Of a stretch of DNA of 41,623 nucleotides, positions 1 to 5,553 are shown one piece after another. Position numbers and translations under genes: made by a program. The number at the start of each line of letters is the position of its first letter. Within the stretch, counting starts at the first letter, position 1. Origin of the DNA: Clostridia bacterium (lineage in GTDB: Bacteria; Bacillota; Clostridia; Oscillospirales; Acutalibacteraceae); NCBI GenBank assembly GCA_017622555.1, contig JAGAQV010000005.1, positions 1 through 41,623 on the forward strand, written 5' to 3'. Below the pieces are notes generated by a model. That model was not told where the DNA came from. It did not search any database and saw only the letters and a list, made by a program, of their open reading frames with translations.

Positions 1-324
1 AGGCTATGGTTGGAGGTGCTGTGGGCAGAGCTACCCGAAGCTCTGCCCACGCAGACAGCGGCGGAACTTGTCGGACATAACCCACAGCGCATACATGAAC
101 TGATCAGAGAACAAACCTTGCACGGTATAAAAATTGGCAGCACCCAATACTGTGTGAAGGAAGAATTTATATGCTATATGGCATCACCGCAAAAATTATC
201 CAACCCACGCACAGAACGATATAAAGAACTTATTCGAGAATTTAAGTACATACAACGCAGAGAGCGTGAAAACGAACAGCGCCGATGCAAAAGAAGAATG
301 AAAAGAGGTGAAAAAATTGATTAA
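1..324 (+). CDS. Excisionase-like HTH protein, 5' end open
   Basis: Small basic protein. Residues about 17-60 fit the HTH_17/excisionase pattern: an 'AAELVGHNPQRIHELI' helix-turn-helix, then a 'GIKIGSTQYCV' wing. The last 35 residues are strongly basic (many R and K), which suits DNA binding. Proteins of this type are recombination directionality factors or regulators in integrative elements and phages; which role applies here cannot be told. The frame is open to the window edge, so the true start is unknown; the first possible in-frame start is TTG at 10. A perfect inverted repeat at 21-50 lies inside the coding sequence. The gene overlaps the start of the next one (stop at 322-324, next start about 317), so the two are translationally coupled. 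Confidence 0.55.
   Translation, partial: RLWLEVLWAELPEALPTQTAAELVGHNPQRIHELIREQTLHGIKIGSTQYCVKEEFICYMASPQKLSNPRTERYKELIREFKYIQRRERENEQRRCKRRMKRGEKID
21..50. repeat. Perfect 12-bp inverted repeat, 6-nt loop
   Basis: The arms GTGGGCAGAGCT (21-32) and AGCTCTGCCCAC (39-50) are perfectly complementary around a 6-nt loop (33-38). There is no T-tract, so it is not an intrinsic terminator. It lies inside an open reading frame at the very edge of the window. It may be a regulator site, a recombination end or an mRNA hairpin. Confidence 0.75.
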
Positions 325-643
325 GAAGAAAGTTCTGACACAAGAACAGATAGCCGAAAAACTTGATTATCTCCGTAAACAGCGTGACGGTCTTATCGTA
401 GGTGAATACAGAAATTATTTATATAAACTGTATATGTACCTCAAAGAGCGTTGCTCCGAAACCGAGGACGGCAGTTGCAACCCATATCCATGGCAAATGC
501 TCGTCGCCCTTGGGAGAGATGATCTGCACAAATCCTATCTTGGATACACCTATTGTGACGACCTTGAAACTCTTGGATATATCAAGATGCAAGGATACGG
601 TAAGAATAAAAAGATTTTTATCATAAAAGAAATTGATTTTTAA
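317..643 (+). CDS. Small hypothetical protein of accessory element
   Basis: A 108-residue soluble, charged protein I do not recognise. It begins with a Lys-rich segment and a short helix ('LTQEQIAEKLDYLRKQRDGL'), followed by aromatic-rich stretches (Y at many positions). I chose TTG at 317 because GAGGTG (305-310) sits six bases upstream; the GTG at 308 is inside that ribosome-binding site. It overlaps the HTH gene before it and ends just ahead of a strong terminator, so the two form a short operon. The setting (HTH protein before, defence-type nuclease after) suggests a mobile or defence island, but nothing in the sequence gives a function. Confidence 0.6.
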   Translation: MIKKKVLTQEQIAEKLDYLRKQRDGLIVGEYRNYLYKLYMYLKERCSETEDGSCNPYPWQMLVALGRDDLHKSYLGYTYCDDLETLGYIKMQGYGKNKKIFIIKEIDF

Positions 644-662
644 TCCCTTGCCGTAACGGAAT

Positions 663-701
663 GCCCCGCCGAAAAATCGGCGGGGCAGCTATTTTTGTTT
701 T
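663..701 (+). terminator. Rho-independent terminator
   Basis: A perfect 10-bp GC-rich stem, GCCCCGCCGA (663-672) with TCGGCGGGGC (677-686), has a 4-base A loop and is followed on the plus strand by a T-rich tail (ATTTTTGTTTT). It ends the small operon at 1-643 and faces the convergent nuclease gene. Confidence 0.85.
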
Positions 702-703
702 GC

Positions 704-2398
704 TTACTTACTTTCTATTTTCCCGAATTGTTTCCCGCTGGAATTTTTCGAGAGAATAGAATAATTAATTTGGTATTCTATTTTTTCATCTATAAGTGTG
801 TATATAAATGGAGCCAACCATTTTGCTTCTCCTGCTCGTAATGACTTAATATCATATGATACGTTTCCTGCTTTGTCTATTTCTGCTTGATAATCTGAAA
901 AACAATCAACAAAATCATCGTAATCATATAATAATCTTCCGCCAAGAGGTGTCATTCGGATAGGCTGTTGATACGGTTGAAAAGACGGATCTACACTTAT
1001 TTGTTCGTTGTCTGTAACATCGAAAAGTTTTGATATTATATCATCGTCAATAAGCCAATCAGACATAGCGCCTAAAATTTCACGCTCATCACAAGTCAAG
1101 TCGCTGTTAATGTCAAAAATTTTAATATCACTATTAGCAAGATGTAAGGTGATTGTTATATCTGAATCGCTATTATCGCCTATATTTTCAATACAAAGCG
1201 GGATACGATATAAATTGGAAAATATTTTTTCGAACTCCTCTAACAACTCCAAATGCAATATAACTTCTTGCAAATCGCATATTAAGTCGTTCTTTTTGGT
1301 TTCAGAGGGAGTCCCTTCATATTGAACACCTGTAATCTGCGCAAACATAGTGCTTTTCGTAAGATTTCCCACATAGAAGAAATCATTAGTTATATCAATA
1401 TTCCAATACTTTTTTATAGCAGTTTTTGCATCGTTTTTTTCTTCCTCAGATAATTCAGCGGGAGAAGACATATTCAAATTAGCTAATCTTTCCCCAAATT
1501 CTTCTATGGATTCAGGGTCATTAGGTATATATTTCCTTATATGAGAATTGTTTTGTTTGGCCTTTTTCGTTTCTGATATTATTGTTTTTATTTTTATGCT
1601 TGGTATTTTAGTAATTAATTCTCTTCCTTTGCTTAAAAGATTTTCTCTAATTGATGCAAAGGCTTTTGTCTCTGTTATCTTGATTAGATTAATATTATTA
1701 CATGTGCAGTTGTCTTGCTCATTAAAGGATTTAACTGTTAAAGTAGATGACTCTTTCCTTCTGTGTAACATTCCATTGCAACTAAGTTCCAACCACTGTG
1801 CTATTTTTTTGATGTACTCATCTTTGGATATACATTTGCTGTTTGTACCAAATAACATATGTAATGAAATTAAAGCGTGAGCCAATTCATCAAGCGAATC
1901 ATAATTTATTGTGTAACCTAAATTTGAAACAAAGCGATTCAAAGAGTCACGCACAACTCCAATTAGGTTGTCAGGATCAAATGGTAACAAGCTGATTTTG
2001 ACTTTTTTATCGGATAAAAAATCTGTATAACCTAAGAGACTCTTTTCTGCCTCTTTATCCATTTGCCCTGCATAATATTTTTCAATAGATTTGATAAAAT
2101 TATTAGTATTTTTATCGCAATTACCGATAAGAATTATCTGATACTCCAAAGCGACAACATCGTTTGATAAGTCTAAAAGCCACTGTTTTATATTTGCAAT
2201 AGTAAATAAATTTACGGATGATTTTACTTGCAGTGCATTTATAACGATATTATTTTCATCCAGCAAAGCAATATCTACTTTATCGTTAGAAGTGGTGTAT
2301 TCAACCGAAATGCTTTCCCATGTCTGTTCAGTACAAGCGTTTAATATTGATACTATAGATTGATATAAATATCCACGGCTTCCTTCTTGTCCTCCCAT
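704..2398 (-). CDS. DUF4297/Cap4-like dsDNA nuclease protein, putative stand-alone antiviral effector
   Basis: 564 residues. The N-terminal ~110 residues match the DUF4297/Cap4 nuclease pattern: 'GSRGYLYQ' at the start, an acidic position in 'SVEYTTSNDKVDI', then 'INALQVKSS', i.e. a PD-(D/E)XK-type core E...D-x-A...Q-x-K. In CBASS Cap4, Avs and ABC-3C systems this domain degrades DNA once a sensor part is triggered. The remaining ~450 residues are unrecognised and contain no visible P-loop or SAVED signature. I start at the ATG at 2398 because AGGAGG (2407-2412) lies eight bases upstream; a longer frame to 2440 would include the promoter. It has its own TATAAT box and lies directly 3' of tRNA-Ser, a usual position for defence cargo. 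No cyclase or partner gene is visible, so it may act alone or with genes outside the window. Confidence 0.65.
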   Translation of the reverse strand: MGGQEGSRGYLYQSIVSILNACTEQTWESISVEYTTSNDKVDIALLDENNIVINALQVKSSVNLFTIANIKQWLLDLSNDVVALEYQIILIGNCDKNTNNFIKSIEKYYAGQMDKEAEKSLLGYTDFLSDKKVKISLLPFDPDNLIGVVRDSLNRFVSNLGYTINYDSLDELAHALISLHMLFGTNSKCISKDEYIKKIAQWLELSCNGMLHRRKESSTLTVKSFNEQDNCTCNNINLIKITETKAFASIRENLLSKGRELITKIPSIKIKTIISETKKAKQNNSHIRKYIPNDPESIEEFGERLANLNMSSPAELSEEEKNDAKTAIKKYWNIDITNDFFYVGNLTKSTMFAQITGVQYEGTPSETKKNDLICDLQEVILHLELLEEFEKIFSNLYRIPLCIENIGDNSDSDITITLHLANSDIKIFDINSDLTCDEREILGAMSDWLIDDDIISKLFDVTDNEQISVDPSFQPYQQPIRMTPLGGRLLYDYDDFVDCFSDYQAEIDKAGNVSYDIKSLRAGEAKWLAPFIYTLIDEKIEYQINYSILSKNSSGKQFGKIESK

Positions 2399-2406
2399 AT
2401 GATTCG

Positions 2407-2429
2407 CCTCCTCATTTTTTATTATTATA
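2407..2429 (-). promoter_or_regulatory. -10 box and RBS of the nuclease gene
   Basis: On the minus strand a perfect TATAAT (2429-2424) is followed by AGGAGG (2412-2407) and the ATG at 2398. No good -35 hexamer is seen 16-18 bases upstream. The very short leader supports the ATG at 2398 over an earlier start. Confidence 0.55.
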
Positions 2430-2466
2430 CCATATCTCACTTAATAAAGAAAGGAAGATTATAAAG

Positions 2467-2500
2467 AAACGCCTTGGAATTATTCAGTTCCAAGGCGTTT
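2467..2500 (-). terminator. Terminator after tRNA-Ser(CGA)
   Basis: A perfect 13-bp stem (AAACGCCTTGGAA at 2467-2479, complement at 2488-2500) begins immediately after the tRNA CCA end on the minus strand. It ends in TTT but the following bases are only moderately U-rich. Confidence 0.7.
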
Positions 2501-2589
2501 TGGCGGAGACGGCGAGATTCGAACTCGCGGGGGATTGCTCCCTAACTGATTTCGAGTCAGCCCCGTTATGACCACTTCGATACGTCTCC
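2501..2589 (-). tRNA. tRNA-Ser(CGA), copy with duplicated 5' half
   Basis: This tRNA folds with acceptor stem GGAGACG/CGTCTCC, a long class-II variable arm (GGGAGCAATCCC), T-arm GTTCGAATC and anticodon loop CTCGAAA (anticodon CGA, reading UCG). Discriminator G and the CCA end are encoded (2504 and 2503-2501). Its 5' half, from the anticodon loop to base 1 (2549-2589), recurs exactly at 4265-4305 and 4450-4489, so the gene was an integration target. The sequence upstream of it lacks the strong promoter found far upstream at 4718-4746, so its present expression is uncertain. Confidence 0.92.
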
Positions 2590-2680
2590 GTGTATGTTAA
2601 ACTCCCAAAGGAGTATTAACGCAAATATTCAGTTGTATTAGAATTCTCGTTAGAACTCTGTGTGATGTGGCGATAGGCAG

Positions 2681-2776
2681 ATGCCTGAAAACCGCACAGT
2701 TAAAGGCTTTTGGGAAGATTGGCTTCCGTTTGGCAAAGAAGATTTCGAGTGTTATTGGCAACTGTTAAAACAGTAA
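2681..2776 (+). CDS. Possible 31-residue peptide or gene remnant
   Basis: ATG to TAA encodes a 31-residue charged, aromatic-rich peptide ('GFWEDWLPFGKEDFECYWQL'). The composition looks protein-like, but there is no clear ribosome-binding site and the frame is closed just upstream at 2663. It may be the tail of a lost gene. The ATTTCGAGT core shared with the tRNA attachment sites lies within it. Confidence 0.25.
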   Translation: MPENRTVKGFWEDWLPFGKEDFECYWQLLKQ

Positions 2777-2910
2777 AAAACGATTTTAAACATCAACGAA
2801 ATAAGAAGGATGAAAAACCCCTAAACCCGCATAAATAAAGGGGTTTCCGCCATTTTAGCCTTTAGAAATCTGGGTTTTTGAAAAAATTATGAAAAATTGA
2901 TTTTTCGACA

Positions 2911-2923
2911 AACCCTTTAGACA
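2911..2923. repeat. 13-bp direct repeat, left copy (AACCCTTTAGACA)
   Basis: This 13-mer is repeated exactly at 4171-4183 in the same orientation, inside the stretch bounded by the tRNA-Ser half copies. It is a candidate integrase arm-type site or element end. Confidence 0.5.
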
Positions 2924-2925
2924 CT

Positions 2926-3213
2926 ATGATAAACAAACATATTTTGAGCAGAGATGGTAAAAGCAAAAAAGAAATTTGTCTGGCTATTCTTAATGACATC
3001 ATCTTACCTACAACAGATATTTTTCTCTCAAATGCTCCTGGTCTTATAGGTAATATAATGTCAATTATGACACCATTTAATAAAACATCCAAGGATGTTA
3101 TGGAATGTGCTGAAATTCAAAGCATTATTACAAACATCGTAATTGTAATTTCTTTAGAACAAATTACAGGGGAATCTTTTTACATAAAAGAATTCGTAGA
3201 GGGAACATGCTAA
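2926..3213 (+). CDS. Hypothetical protein, possibly a remnant
   Basis: A 95-residue frame with a hydrophilic start, two moderately hydrophobic stretches and a Cys end. I do not recognise a family. No Shine-Dalgarno precedes the ATG; instead the repeat AACCCTTTAGACA runs up to it. It stops just before a stem-loop shared with the opposite gene. It could be a small cargo gene or the surviving end of a larger one. Confidence 0.3.
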   Translation: MINKHILSRDGKSKKEICLAILNDIILPTTDIFLSNAPGLIGNIMSIMTPFNKTSKDVMECAEIQSIITNIVIVISLEQITGESFYIKEFVEGTC

Positions 3214-3215
3214 AA

Positions 3216-3242
3216 AATAGCAGGGCGACAAGCCCTGCTATT
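3216..3242 (-). terminator. Terminator of the Xre-type gene
   Basis: A perfect 11-bp stem, AATAGCAGGGC (3216-3226) with GCCCTGCTATT (3232-3242), is followed on the minus strand by a run of T (complement of A3212-A3217). It ends the minus-strand Xre gene and may also stop the opposing short frame. Confidence 0.8.
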
Positions 3243-3276
3243 ACACTAAGAATCTTATTAAATTATATATGCTTGT

Positions 3277-3997
3277 TTAGTTATCATCATGCGGGATGAG
3301 ATTTAAGATTGAGAAGGCATTCTCAATAAGTGATTTCATAATTTTGAAATGTGCATTAGGAAGATGGCGTACTGCTTCATGAGCTGTGTAAGTAAAATGA
3401 TTTGTTTGGAATTGTTCGAGAATTTTCTTTTTTGAATTCAAAAATATCTTCGCCCTGATAGCGCTTAAAAGAATCTTTCCATTCTTCAAAATTATCTGGT
3501 TCAGAGGAAAAATCTGCCACGTCAACAAAAAGTGCAGCAATGATTTTTTCTAACAATTTTTCAGAGGGAACGTGAGTGCCTTTTATATATCGATGAAGAG
3601 AGCTCCTGCTAATATCAATGTTACGGCAAAAATCAGCGACTTCCTGATTGTTGATATTCATAAGAAATACTATTCTTTCGCCAATATAGTTATGTTCCGG
3701 AGTATATTCAAAAACTGGATAATCTACCAAATCTTTAGGTTCTACACCTTTTGCTTTTGCTTGGTTTTCTTTAAGTTCAGTATATTGAGAATACTTTTCT
3801 TTATAGGCATATTGTATCGGCATCTGCTTATTGCGAAGTTTCCTAAGATTCTTAAGACCTTCTTTTTCACGGTCTTCCTGAATGCTTAAATAGGCTCGGT
3901 ACATTTGTTCGGCCACTTCTGTATGGGCAGGGTCATCAAAAGGAACACCAGCAGTCCCTTCATTGAGTACAGTTACTTCTTCGCCATCTATCAGCAT
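3277..3997 (-). pseudogene. Xre-family HTH protein interrupted by a +1 frameshift
   Basis: From ATG 3997 the frame encodes ~207 residues with a charged N-terminal part of unknown type, then a clear Xre/HTH_3 domain ('NNQEVADFCRNIDISRSSLH', 'RYIKGTHVPSEKLLEKIIAA'). It breaks at a run of six A (T3428-T3433 on the plus strand): the zero frame stops at 3377, while the +1 frame continues for ~50 protein-like residues ('TAHEAVRHLPNAHFKIMKSL') to a TAA at 3277 just before the terminator. One extra A explains it: a mutation, a base-call error or, less likely, recoding. There is no Shine-Dalgarno at 3997 and the start abuts the terminator of tRNA-Ser 2, so the 5' end may also be truncated. The gene sits inside the integration scar. 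Confidence 0.6.
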
Positions 3998-3998
3998 A

Positions 3999-4030
3999 AG
4001 AAAAAGCAGCAGGTAAAAACCTACTGCTTT
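3999..4030 (-). terminator. Terminator after second tRNA-Ser(CGA)
   Basis: A 12-bp stem with one wobble (AAAGCAGCAGGT at 4003-4014, ACCTACTGCTTT at 4019-4030) is followed on the minus strand by TTTTTCTT. It starts a few bases after the tRNA. Confidence 0.8.
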
Positions 4031-4037
4031 CCTTATC

Positions 4038-4127
4038 TGGCGGAGAGTTAGGGATTCGAACCCTAGGTTCATTTGACTGAACACAGCATTTCGAGTGCTG
4101 CACCTTCGACCACTCGGACAACTCTCC
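4038..4127 (-). tRNA. tRNA-Ser(CGA), second isoacceptor inside the insertion
   Basis: Acceptor stem GGAGAGT/ACTCTCC, D-arm CCGAGTGG, anticodon stem CAGCA/TGCTG around loop CTCGAAA (anticodon CGA), a long class-II variable arm, T-arm GGTTCGAATCC and an encoded CCA (4040-4038). It shares the anticodon with the tRNA at 2501-2589 but differs through most of its body. Two CGA serine tRNAs are unusual in a Clostridium-type genome. This one lies between copies of the disrupted tRNA's 5' half, so it may be element cargo that compensates for loss of the target gene. Confidence 0.92.
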
Positions 4128-4170
4128 GTATCAAACATATAAAATTTTTAGATGAGCAAAACCTATAGAC

Positions 4171-4183
4171 AACCCTTTAGACA
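4171..4183. repeat. 13-bp direct repeat, right copy (AACCCTTTAGACA)
   Basis: Identical to 2911-2923. It is preceded directly by a related AACCTATAGACA unit, and TTTAGACA here faces TGTCTAAA about 25 bases later, giving an inverted arrangement (TTTAGACA..TCGCT / AGCGA.GTCTAAA). Such clustered short repeats beside a core site resemble tyrosine-integrase arm sites. Confidence 0.5.
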
Positions 4184-4264
4184 AATCGCTGTTTGCTCAA
4201 AGCGATGTCTAAAAACCTTTTGAAATCAAGGGGTTTAGGGAGAAGTTCGAAAATAGCCAACAAC

Positions 4265-4305
4265 ATTTCGAGTCAGCCCCGTTATGACCACTTCGATACG
4301 TCTCC
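4265..4305 (-). repeat. tRNA-Ser 5'-half copy B (att-like)
   Basis: 41 bases identical to 2549-2589: from the anticodon loop to nucleotide 1 of tRNA-Ser(CGA), with no matching 3' half. The match ends exactly at tRNA base 1 on one side and at ATTTCGAG on the other. Confidence 0.85.
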
Positions 4306-4449
4306 ATATAAAATTGTATAGGCTTGCGCCTTGATACCAAATTGCGAGAAAACTGCGAGATGCAGAATTCTTAAAGTGCAAATGCACGTGGCGTAAACGC
4401 CGATAAACAGCGGAGTTTCAAAGAGTAGTGTGTGACAGACCCGACTATG

Positions 4450-4504
4450 TTTCGAGTCAGCCCCGTTATGACCACTTCGATACGTCTCCGTGTATGTTAA
4501 ACTC
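4450..4504 (-). repeat. tRNA-Ser 5'-half copy C plus leader (att-like)
   Basis: 55 bases identical to 2550-2604, covering the tRNA 5' half and 15 bases of its leader. Beyond that the two leaders are still recognisably related but diverged (both have a short ACTC/GAGT hairpin followed by a TATTCA motif). It is probably the displaced host half of the tRNA gene. Confidence 0.85.
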
Positions 4505-4539
4505 AATTTAGAGTATAACGAACTATTCAATTTTTACCG

Positions 4540-4555
4540 AACGGGGCGCCCCGTT
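4540..4555. repeat. 16-bp perfect palindrome
   Basis: AACGGGGCGCCCCGTT is a perfect self-complementary 16-mer. Its right part (GCCCCGTTATG, 4548-4558) is identical to 11 bases of the tRNA-Ser 5' half (2560-2570). Confidence 0.8.
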
Positions 4556-4565
4556 ATGTCCTGTT

Positions 4566-4612
4566 GCGGTGCCCGAAAATTTTTAACACTGCCGTGTAAA
4601 AATTTCGACCGC
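4566..4612. repeat. Long imperfect hairpin between tRNA-like blocks
   Basis: GCGGT (4566-4570) pairs with ACCGC (4608-4612), and GAAAATTTTT with AAAAATTTC, closing on CAC/GTG around TGCC. With GTTGC (4563-4567) and GCAAC (4657-4661) at its borders it resembles a small non-autonomous element or a folded RNA. Confidence 0.6.
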
Positions 4613-4696
4613 GGCCACTCCTTATGCCTCGCTTAATCTGCCACCGGCGGCGCCCAGCAACGTCCCCGCTTCGATACGTATGCATATATAAATATA

Positions 4697-4725
4697 TTGC
4701 TTTTATCAGCAAGAATTATTATAAT
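4697..4725 (+). promoter_or_regulatory. Probable birA promoter, overlapping the divergent tRNA promoter
   Basis: On the plus strand TTGCTT (4697-4702), 17 bases, TATAAT (4720-4725). The two TATAAT boxes of the divergent promoters overlap in the sequence ATTATAAT, so the promoters should exclude each other. Confidence 0.5.
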
Positions 4726-4746
4726 GAATTTAAAAGACTTTGTCAA
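4718..4746 (-). promoter_or_regulatory. Perfect-consensus promoter facing the tRNA-Ser scar
   Basis: On the minus strand TTGACA (4746-4741), 17 bases, TATAAT (4723-4718). Both hexamers are exact consensus with ideal spacing. Transcription would start near 4711 and run through the structured block towards copies C and B. It is probably the original stable-RNA promoter of the tRNA-Ser gene. Confidence 0.85.
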
Positions 4747-4773: not shown

Positions 4774-5553
4774 ATGTTGAGTGAAAATTTGATCACTGCC
4801 AACGGCATTACTTCACGTCTAAAAACTGACGGAATTAACCTTTCACTTTTTGAAAGTGTAACCTCAACCAACACTCTTTTAAAAGAAATGGCTGTAAACG
4901 GCGAAGGTGAAGGACAGGTTATTATAGCCCTTTCACAAACCGAGGGCCGTGGCAGGTATGACCGCAAATTCCAGTCCGACAAGGGCGGAATTTATATGAG
5001 CATTTTACTCCGCCCTAAAGCCGACACAATTGACACTACCCTTTTAACCGCCGCCGCAGCAGTAGCTGTAAGCGATGCCATCGAAGATGCTTCAGGCAAA
5101 AACACCGAAATAAAATGGGTTAATGACATTTTAATTAATGGCAAGAAGGTTTGCGGCATTTTGTGCGAGGGTGGTTTTATGGGTCGTGACAGCTTTGTTG
5201 TTGTGGGCATAGGGATTAACGCTTGCGAGAGCGAAAACGGCTTTTATGATGAAATTAAGGATATTGCCGGCACTGTTTTTGATAACTACCACCCCACCCT
5301 TTGCGAAAAGCTTTGCGCCGCTGTAATTGATAATTTATTTTACCAATATAAACACCTTGAAAACCGTGAATTTTTAAACACCTACCGCCAAAAAAGTATG
5401 GCTTTAGGTCAAAAGATTCATATTTTAAAGCAAGGCCAAATTATTAACGAAGGCACTGCTTTAGAAATTGACGATAACTGCCATCTTAAAGTAAAACTTA
5501 ACAATGACGAAACTGTAACCCTTTCAAGTGGTGAGGTATCAATAAAACTATAA
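4774..5553 (+). CDS. birA: Biotin--[acetyl-CoA carboxylase] ligase (monofunctional BirA)
   Basis: Activates biotin with ATP and attaches it to the lysine of biotin carboxyl carrier protein in the cytoplasm. 259 residues. The catalytic domain shows 'STNTLLKEMA', the biotin/ATP loop 'TEGRGRYDRKF' (around residues 57-67), and 'KWVNDILINGKKVCGIL'; the C-terminal ~45 residues form the small BPL_C barrel. The N-terminal winged helix of repressor-type BirA is missing, since the protein begins ~25 residues before the catalytic motif, so it should not act as a repressor. AAAGGAGG (4762-4769) precedes the ATG. It is monocistronic and ends in a shared bidirectional terminator. Confidence 0.93.
   Translation: MLSENLITANGITSRLKTDGINLSLFESVTSTNTLLKEMAVNGEGEGQVIIALSQTEGRGRYDRKFQSDKGGIYMSILLRPKADTIDTTLLTAAAAVAVSDAIEDASGKNTEIKWVNDILINGKKVCGILCEGGFMGRDSFVVVGIGINACESENGFYDEIKDIAGTVFDNYHPTLCEKLCAAVIDNLFYQYKHLENREFLNTYRQKSMALGQKIHILKQGQIINEGTALEIDDNCHLKVKLNNDETVTLSSGEVSIKL

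Follow-up and report, generated by a model that had tools for sequence, protein, structure and literature searches.

How did a stretch of clostridial DNA come to hold three copies of the 5' half of a tRNA-Ser(CGA) gene, all starting at the same point of the anticodon loop? The stretch (here, the window) is a complete contig, C28 (41623 bp), of a draft genome of 1.60 Mb in 31 contigs. Repeat alignment and the sequence itself confirmed the copies described in an initial annotation, at 2550-2604 and 4450-4504 (55 bp, 100% identity) and at 4266-4320 (82% of 55 bp, exact over the first 40 bp), and the repeated part is indeed the 5' half of the tRNA. Each copy starts with TTTCGAG, the anticodon loop of tRNA-Ser(CGA) (here, the core), preceded by A (2549 and 4265) or G (4449); cores occur in the window at 2550, 2743, 4089, 4266, and 4450. 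Two intact tRNA-Ser(CGA) genes were found by ARAGORN, at 2501-2589 and 4038-4127, both on the minus strand. Very probably, elements that carry a complete spare tRNA-Ser integrate at the anticodon loop, and the 5'-half copies are stubs of earlier visits. By stub we mean an element end piece consisting of a tRNA 5' half, a leader, and usually paired direct repeats; X denotes the opposite element end. Labels refer to genomes of relatives (G), fetched loci (L), and contigs of the window's own genome (C).

The host tRNA-Ser gene is split at its anticodon loop

The comparison with a relative lacking the insert, which the initial annotation had called for, was provided by G008. This empty site (L030) holds ZIP, ferritin, an uncut tRNA-Ser, and birA together at one locus, with one further open reading frame (ORF) between ferritin and the tRNA. 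In the window's genome, the host tRNA-Ser(CGA) gene is cut at the anticodon loop, and element DNA adjoins each half. A 62-bp copy of the 3' half (98% identity) lies on C18 (10028-10089, minus strand) behind rubredoxin, ZIP, and ferritin genes (named by eye), and the 5' half with its promoter lies by birA in the window; amino acid identity to G008 is 94.7% for the C18 ferritin and 78.8% for the window birA. Beyond the anticodon loop of the 3' half, C18 continues into different DNA, including the PADLOC candidate PDC-S01 ATPase and a type III restriction-modification pair. On its birA side, the window has a leader matching G008, a decayed 5' half whose last position is 4683, and a sigma-70 promoter scoring 12/12 (4746-4718, minus strand); a similar TTGACA...TATAAT precedes the G008 tRNA (by eye). 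The acceptor variant GCAGACG/CGTCTGC is common to G008 and C18, and the tRNA at 2501-2589 has GGAGACG/CGTCTCC. Because of the empty site in G008, the shared acceptor variant, the matching leader, and the promoter, the native halves are identified as the C18 3' half and window positions 4549-4683.

Judged by these sequence comparisons, neither the tRNA at 2501-2589 nor the copy at 4450 is native. The latter (copy C), proposed by the initial annotation as the host half, is ruled out by the G008 comparison, since the decayed copy, which adjoins the native promoter and birA, is that of the host. Moreover, the differing acceptor stems, together with G008 set against C18 and the window, show the host gene disrupted and not restored from halves. 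Among 36 tRNA matches in the draft genome, tRNA-Ser(CGA) is represented solely by the two genes borne on elements; tRNA-Ser with anticodons GCT, TGA, and GGA are encoded by single genes elsewhere. tRNA-Ser(TGA) might read UCG by wobble.

Elements in relatives carry a complete tRNA

In relatives, in which 3' halves were located by BLAST, a full element reads core-X, integrase, the 3' half, core, and 5' half of its own complete tRNA, then arm and core. The distance from the core of the element tRNA to the element end is about 170-200 bp, and the short repeat pair of the arm recurs at X. That these elements enter at TTTCGAG bears out the earlier proposal of the anticodon loop as integration site. 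The core common to the X end and the tRNA 5' half is 7-10 bp, not always 7: TTTCGAG only (D, A, and G054), 8 bp (G006), 8-9 bp (e2), or 10 bp (B).

G017 and G030 each contain one element on one contig between host-type halves, and the element tRNA is unlike those halves, with larger differences than in the window's genome; in G000, the element tRNA also differs from the host halves. In G017, one element of 17 kb, which encodes an integrase, a relaxase, and MobC, separates a host-type 3' half from stubs D and A plus a further 5' half. Since D's integrase is the sole one in this interval, stub A appears to have persisted after the loss of its element. Element B occurs alone in G024, where one contig carries X_B together with the host 3' half and a second carries the tRNA, stub B, and an additional 5' half; there, the complete 201-amino-acid (aa) gene follows a large serine recombinase gene (L048, 57-1880). 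G000 and G024 have the same B ends (X plus stub) and different native 3' halves. Stub type A was found in G000, G012, G017, G037, and G064; in G012, X_A lies furthest left among the ends seen, and the stub order is B, A (on two contigs), as nesting would give. The initial annotation had counted recurrence of the same three copies with unrelated flanks against an insertion. Stub types do recur, but their order varies and the flanks are those of other hosts, as the ends of mobile elements predict.

Local tandem duplication or an assembly error, either of which would yield identical 55-bp copies 1.9 kb apart, has a negligible probability given that different bodies lie behind each copy and that many assemblies share the architecture. 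The latter include two isolates, Eubacterium coprostanoligenes ATCC 51222 (L115, next core at +201) and Oscillospiraceae bacterium MH27-2 (L109, next core at +196), and the similar spacing in these and other assemblies removes the assembly artefact that the initial annotation had allowed for.

The cargo of the elements is defence-like: besides the predicted endonuclease at 704-2440 of the window, C18:1-9557 encodes type III restriction-modification, PDC-S01 and PDC-S57 candidates, and a Schlafen AlbA_2 protein, the G017 element encodes relaxase, MobC, and AbiTii, and L047 encodes AbiTii, PD-T7-3, and DUF4143. As a separate observation, the IMG/VR viral contigs L217, L222, L223, and L225 show a junction between a foreign end and TTTCGAG with the 5' half of tRNA-Ser; a tyrosine integrase is encoded on the part of each that was fetched. 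This tRNA-Ser site may also be used by prophages.

Stub spacing and integrases across loci

A tRNA region was matched in 58/70 genomes of the genus, where a match can be any similar tRNA-Ser. The loci for the core-spacing test were fetched for resemblance to the window tRNA half and hence are not a random sample. Among tRNA-Ser(CGA) loci whose 5' flank measured ≥1300 bp, a second TTTCGAG lay 160-215 bp off in 35 of 113, versus 3 of 1017 control windows. The loci scanned yielded 31 distinct units between neighbouring 5' halves (<2500 bp apart), 25 of which measured 168-202 bp; the others were 78, 78, 347, 395, 395, and 1716 bp long, and both 395-bp units hold a further core (193 + 202). The 78-bp stubs (L050, 2205-2283; L141, 50-128) had no paired repeats (by eye). 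Given flanks of >260 bp on the right and 1500 bp on the left, an integrase was present within 4 kb at 11/19 loci with a stub and at 5/71 without. Of these five, L062 and L197 in fact have stubs, which were missed owing to a variant tRNA core, TTTCGAA, and the right flank of L133 extends for only 265 bp, so that L120 and L139 remain. Stubs of this kind are also found in other Clostridia, in many cases next to a tyrosine integrase, and tRNA-Leu genes have them as well.

The converse survey started from the L062 integrase, used as query against 300 genomes of the family (threshold, 1e-50 or better). Relatives were found in 67 of the 300 genomes and 50 of 135 genera. Of 30 loci fetched, 26 had a complete tRNA past the 3' end of the integrase and convergent with it (Ser-CGA, 16; Leu-TAA, 5; Leu-CAA, 3; Ser-TGA, 2); the other four had no tRNA in the locus. 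An exact second core at 160-215 bp was present in 19/26 integrase loci, versus 7/338 control windows; a control allowing one mismatch was too loose (38/260 windows positive), and the exact-core control was used instead. Chance origin of the second core is ruled out by the control windows of both surveys (3/1017 and 7/338). In L285, L288, L289, and L291, a second core with one mismatch lies at this distance and is followed by a tRNA 5' half, and in L281 the following 5' half is interrupted by a module, M, described below. The tRNA-Leu genes (CAA, TAA) are served by the same integrase family, with stubs of 179-202 bp (L292, L293, L295, L296, and L299).

In 8 of the 26 loci (L273-L276, L278, L280, L286, and L291), the following 5' half agreed with that of the element at 18-21 of 39-40 positions at most in an ungapped comparison, near the control level, so that the element tRNA was not assembled from the half that follows it. 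This bears on the classical tRNA island, in which an element-borne 5' half rebuilds the gene, with copy C as the host half and copy B as an old element end. Such an island would account for three exact 5'-half copies, and 159 of 3919 islands in Islander have a 5' fragment (PMC4383910). We nevertheless regard it as very improbable: the G008 empty site places the native halves elsewhere, the element tRNAs are unlike the host halves in G000, G017, and G030, and the eight integrase loci show near-control matches. The earlier idea of a gene rebuilt from an element-borne half was therefore abandoned, as the element brings a complete tRNA whose acceptor stem differs from the native one.

Paired repeats in the stubs follow the integrase

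Stubs usually hold two short direct repeats, 11-13 bp apart, and a perfect 9-bp direct repeat pair was present in 16/26 integrase loci. TGCGAGA pairs occurred in L026, L031, L057, L151, and L197, whose integrases are at least 65% identical to each other, and GGA(A/G)AGAAC pairs in L062 and L170 (integrases 72% identical). Integrase identity and repeat similarity were correlated over 36 of 44 loci (Mantel r, 0.56; 0/5000 permutations); of the eight loci dropped, four had no adjacent tRNA and four no detected stub, including L031, whose stub was seen in the spacing test. Shared ancestry contributes to this correlation.

The repeats were also sought in X ends, with arm motifs picked after viewing the ends. 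Motif A was present in 4 copies in each of two genomes (0/1000 shuffles each), D in 5 copies (0/1000), B in 2 copies (4 and 15/1000), and e2 in 1 copy (14/1000). A stricter 11-mer test gave 0/300 shuffles for e2 and 8 and 7/300 for B. These patterns suggest that the paired repeats are arm-type sites of the integrase.

They also bear on an integron-like arrangement in which the ~190-bp units would themselves be cassettes, moved in trans by an element integrase. The same stub types do appear in different orders and hosts, and unit lengths are narrow and core boundaries precise; yet the repeats of the first stub track the adjoining integrase, as expected for its own element end, and units of ~190 bp hold at most about 65 codons, which makes this arrangement distinctly improbable. 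The integrases scanned beside arrays of relatives were of the Phage_integrase/SAM type, in a search outside of which lay attC, IntI, and free circles.

A model of integration and stub formation

We propose that the integrase would join attP (arm-core-X) to the anticodon-loop core of the host tRNA. The function of the host tRNA would be lost, and the spare tRNA of the element would take over. Because it has the same core inside, the spare tRNA would be a fresh target, so that later elements could enter it (nesting). Alternatively, recombination of the left core of an element with its own tRNA core would remove the body and leave the 5' half and arm. Nesting and such inner-core excision are both likely routes to stubs; either would lead to a row of ~190-bp stubs with the newest beside the intact tRNA, and each stub would supply the intact tRNA with a new leader and 5' half. 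A bolder version, which we consider unlikely, is that the anticodon loop is an integron-like platform at which several integrase lineages add, remove, and reshuffle elements and ~190-bp promoter-plus-5'-half units at TTTCGAG, making the host promoter and 5' half exchangeable and UCG decoding dependent on resident elements.

Several observations weigh against the proposal of tRNA-bearing elements that leave stubs. No excision or transfer was observed. L297, L298, and L300 have an integrase and a tRNA but no stub, the one-mismatch second core of L298 being a chance match, and 8/19 loci with a stub lacked an integrase over a distance of 4 kb. The B and D motifs each match the other's X end, with four B motifs in the X of D, and D and A scored poorly in the 11-mer test (160, 36, and 49 of 300 shuffles). 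That a stub can outlive its body is suggested mainly by G017, where the interval between the halves contains an A stub but no body of A; the leader of the last 5' half there resembles that of a stub, so this half may itself be a further truncated stub, and host synteny was unconfirmed, as seven orthologue loci had no tRNA-Ser within 1.5 kb on each side. Likewise, the left flanks of L114, L109, L112, and L050 gave no proof of a scar without an element (the L114 flank contains an AAA-like cargo gene, by eye). C18 and C28 are unjoined in the assembly, so further element bodies may lie in the gap. Finally, a PF00589 search found no integrase on the window contig. The integrase of element B would lie beyond the left end of the contig, and B in G024 shows only a short C-terminal tyrosine-integrase-like piece (by eye) between the large serine recombinase and the 201-aa gene.

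All PF00589 matches of the window's genome are on other contigs, in agreement with the initial annotation of a window without integrase. As candidates for the missing enzyme, those on C6 and C16, which the comparison covered (leaving out C7, C15, and the C21 pair), were rejected as fragments: the C6 fragment is 29-50% identical to array integrases over the aligned parts, and the C16 fragment had no match among array integrases. A structure-database search returned ordinary tyrosine recombinases (best, 3nkh; 1.3e-11).

Organization of the locus

The features of the locus are listed in Table 1. Positions 2549, 4265, and 4449, taken by the initial annotation as junctions, proved to be true boundaries of elements or stubs, but a further mini-element lies between them, with a second tRNA-Ser of which no use had been made. 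The window holds several element and stub units, in keeping with the at least two insertions proposed earlier. No body of element A was seen beside stub A in the window, and stub E is also present in G009 and G021. A PHROGs scan of six window ORFs gave regulator matches only.

Table 1. Features of the tRNA-Ser(CGA) locus in the window
Feature	Position	Strand	Remarks
Right-hand part of element B	1-2500	.	Contig starts inside 201-aa gene
3' part of 201-aa gene	10-324		100% identical to gene beside G024's tRNA
Element B gene	308-643		98% identical to gene beside G024's tRNA
Cargo gene	704-2440	-	PADLOC 'Effector' endonuclease, 1.4e-59; no Pfam match
Element B's complete tRNA-Ser(CGA)	2501-2589	-	ARAGORN, Rfam RF00005; acceptor stem unlike native
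Attachment core of intact tRNA, 7 bp	2550-2556	+	TTTCGAG, anticodon loop
Stub B, 193 bp	2550-2742	+	tRNA 5' half, leader, and arm
Stub B direct repeats	near 2638-2643 and 2650-2655		TTAGAA
Mini-element 2, 1523 bp	2743-4265	.	Between two cores; own tRNA and stub; no integrase
Mini-element 2 left end, X2	from 2743
Mini-element 2 ORF	2926-3213
Mini-element 2 HTH_3 gene	3377-4138	-
Mini-element 2's complete tRNA-Ser(CGA)	4038-4127	-	ARAGORN, Rfam RF00005
Mini-element 2 stub, 177 bp	4089-4265	+	Direct repeats TATAGACAA / TTTAGACAA near 4164-4184
Stub A, 184 bp	4266-4449	+	Direct repeats TGCGAGA near 4343-4349 and 4354-4360
Stub E, short, truncated	4450-4548	+	Copy C; B-like leader; right limit approximate
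Piece of displaced native tRNA-Ser 5' half	4549-4558	+	CCCCGTTATG; comparison with G008
Hairpin module M, conserved	4560-4668	-	Inside displaced native half
Native tRNA-Ser 5'-terminal piece	4669-4683	+	Comparison with G008
Native tRNA-Ser promoter, now orphan	4718-4746	-	TTGACA-17-TATAAT; sigma-70, 12/12
Host birA, right border of locus	4774-5553	+	PF03099, PF02237; 78.8% to G008

Module M, which interrupts the displaced native half, has a conserved two-hairpin fold of ~110 bp, with two-sided changes at 15/26 pairs among 16 sequences. An Rfam search gave no match at module M. A model of it matched in 57/70 genomes of the genus and at 6 places in the window's own. In 40 matches examined of 49 rows (duplicates and cut-off rows omitted), a tRNA on the same strand lay within 450 nt downstream in 27, and a copy of the 5' end of that tRNA lay directly before M in 20. 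A flanking repeat scoring at least 16 was present at 28/31 matches tested and did not abut M in 4 of these 28 (L344, one of L347, L360, and L248). The module is often located directly behind a duplicated tRNA 5' piece (Ser, Pro, Leu), lies near tRNA-Met in L248, and is sometimes arranged in tandem units of ~200 bp; other loci include L237, L256, L248, L268, L349, L353, and L357. M may be independently mobile; a mobile repeat that seeks out tRNA genes and an RNA transcribed from a tRNA promoter are two possibilities.

Relation to known systems

The closest parallels are tRNA-dependent lysogeny of actinobacteriophages, which has a common core of 8-17 bp (Guerrero-Bustamante and Hatfull 2024, PMC10865867), and the site-specific accretion of cis-mobilizable elements (CIMEs; PMC5704250). 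With the former, the system shares a tRNA target that is not rebuilt, a short core (7-10 bp here), a complete tRNA of the same isotype on the element, and putative paired arm-type sites (PMC10865867); a tyrosine integrase, as in that system, lies beside the tRNA in relatives. Unlike in that system, the annotated elements (G017 and C18) bear relaxase or defence genes, the hosts are Clostridia, the spare tRNA, which contains the core, is located ~190 bp from the element end, and stubs pile up. As the contents of G017 and C18 and the regulator-only PHROGs matches indicate that the annotated elements are not temperate phages, we describe the system as lysogeny-like and do not class it as lysogeny.

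As in CIMEs, decayed elements are flanked by attachment (att) sites and newcomers enter the att site beside the target gene (PMC5704250); positions 2743-4265 and the stubs are flanked by att cores and lack integrase and transfer genes. The units here are, however, only about 190 bp long and contain a tRNA leader and 5' half. Anticodon-centred integration is also a class of Islander tRNA islands (2083/3919; a 3' fragment is found in 3760/3919; PMC4383910), but there the island sequence restores the gene, whereas here a whole gene is supplied: in G000, G017, G030, and 8/26 integrase loci, element fragment and host fragment do not add up to the gene. Stub rows or arrays were not described in the titles, abstracts, and sections of cited papers that the literature search covered. 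Taken together, the system resembles tRNA-dependent lysogeny and CIME accretion, but in mobilizable, defence-carrying elements.

In the window's draft genome, the UCG-decoding tRNA gene is now the property of an element. Rows of stubs could give a readable order of past visitors, and the paired arm repeats are a possible route to predicting integrase specificity. How frequent tRNA-dependent lysogeny is beyond actinobacteriophages was left open in 2024 (PMC10865867); the same logic is now seen in mobilizable, defence-carrying elements of gut Clostridia, with integrase relatives in 67 of 300 family genomes and a complete Ser or Leu tRNA at 26 of 30 loci.

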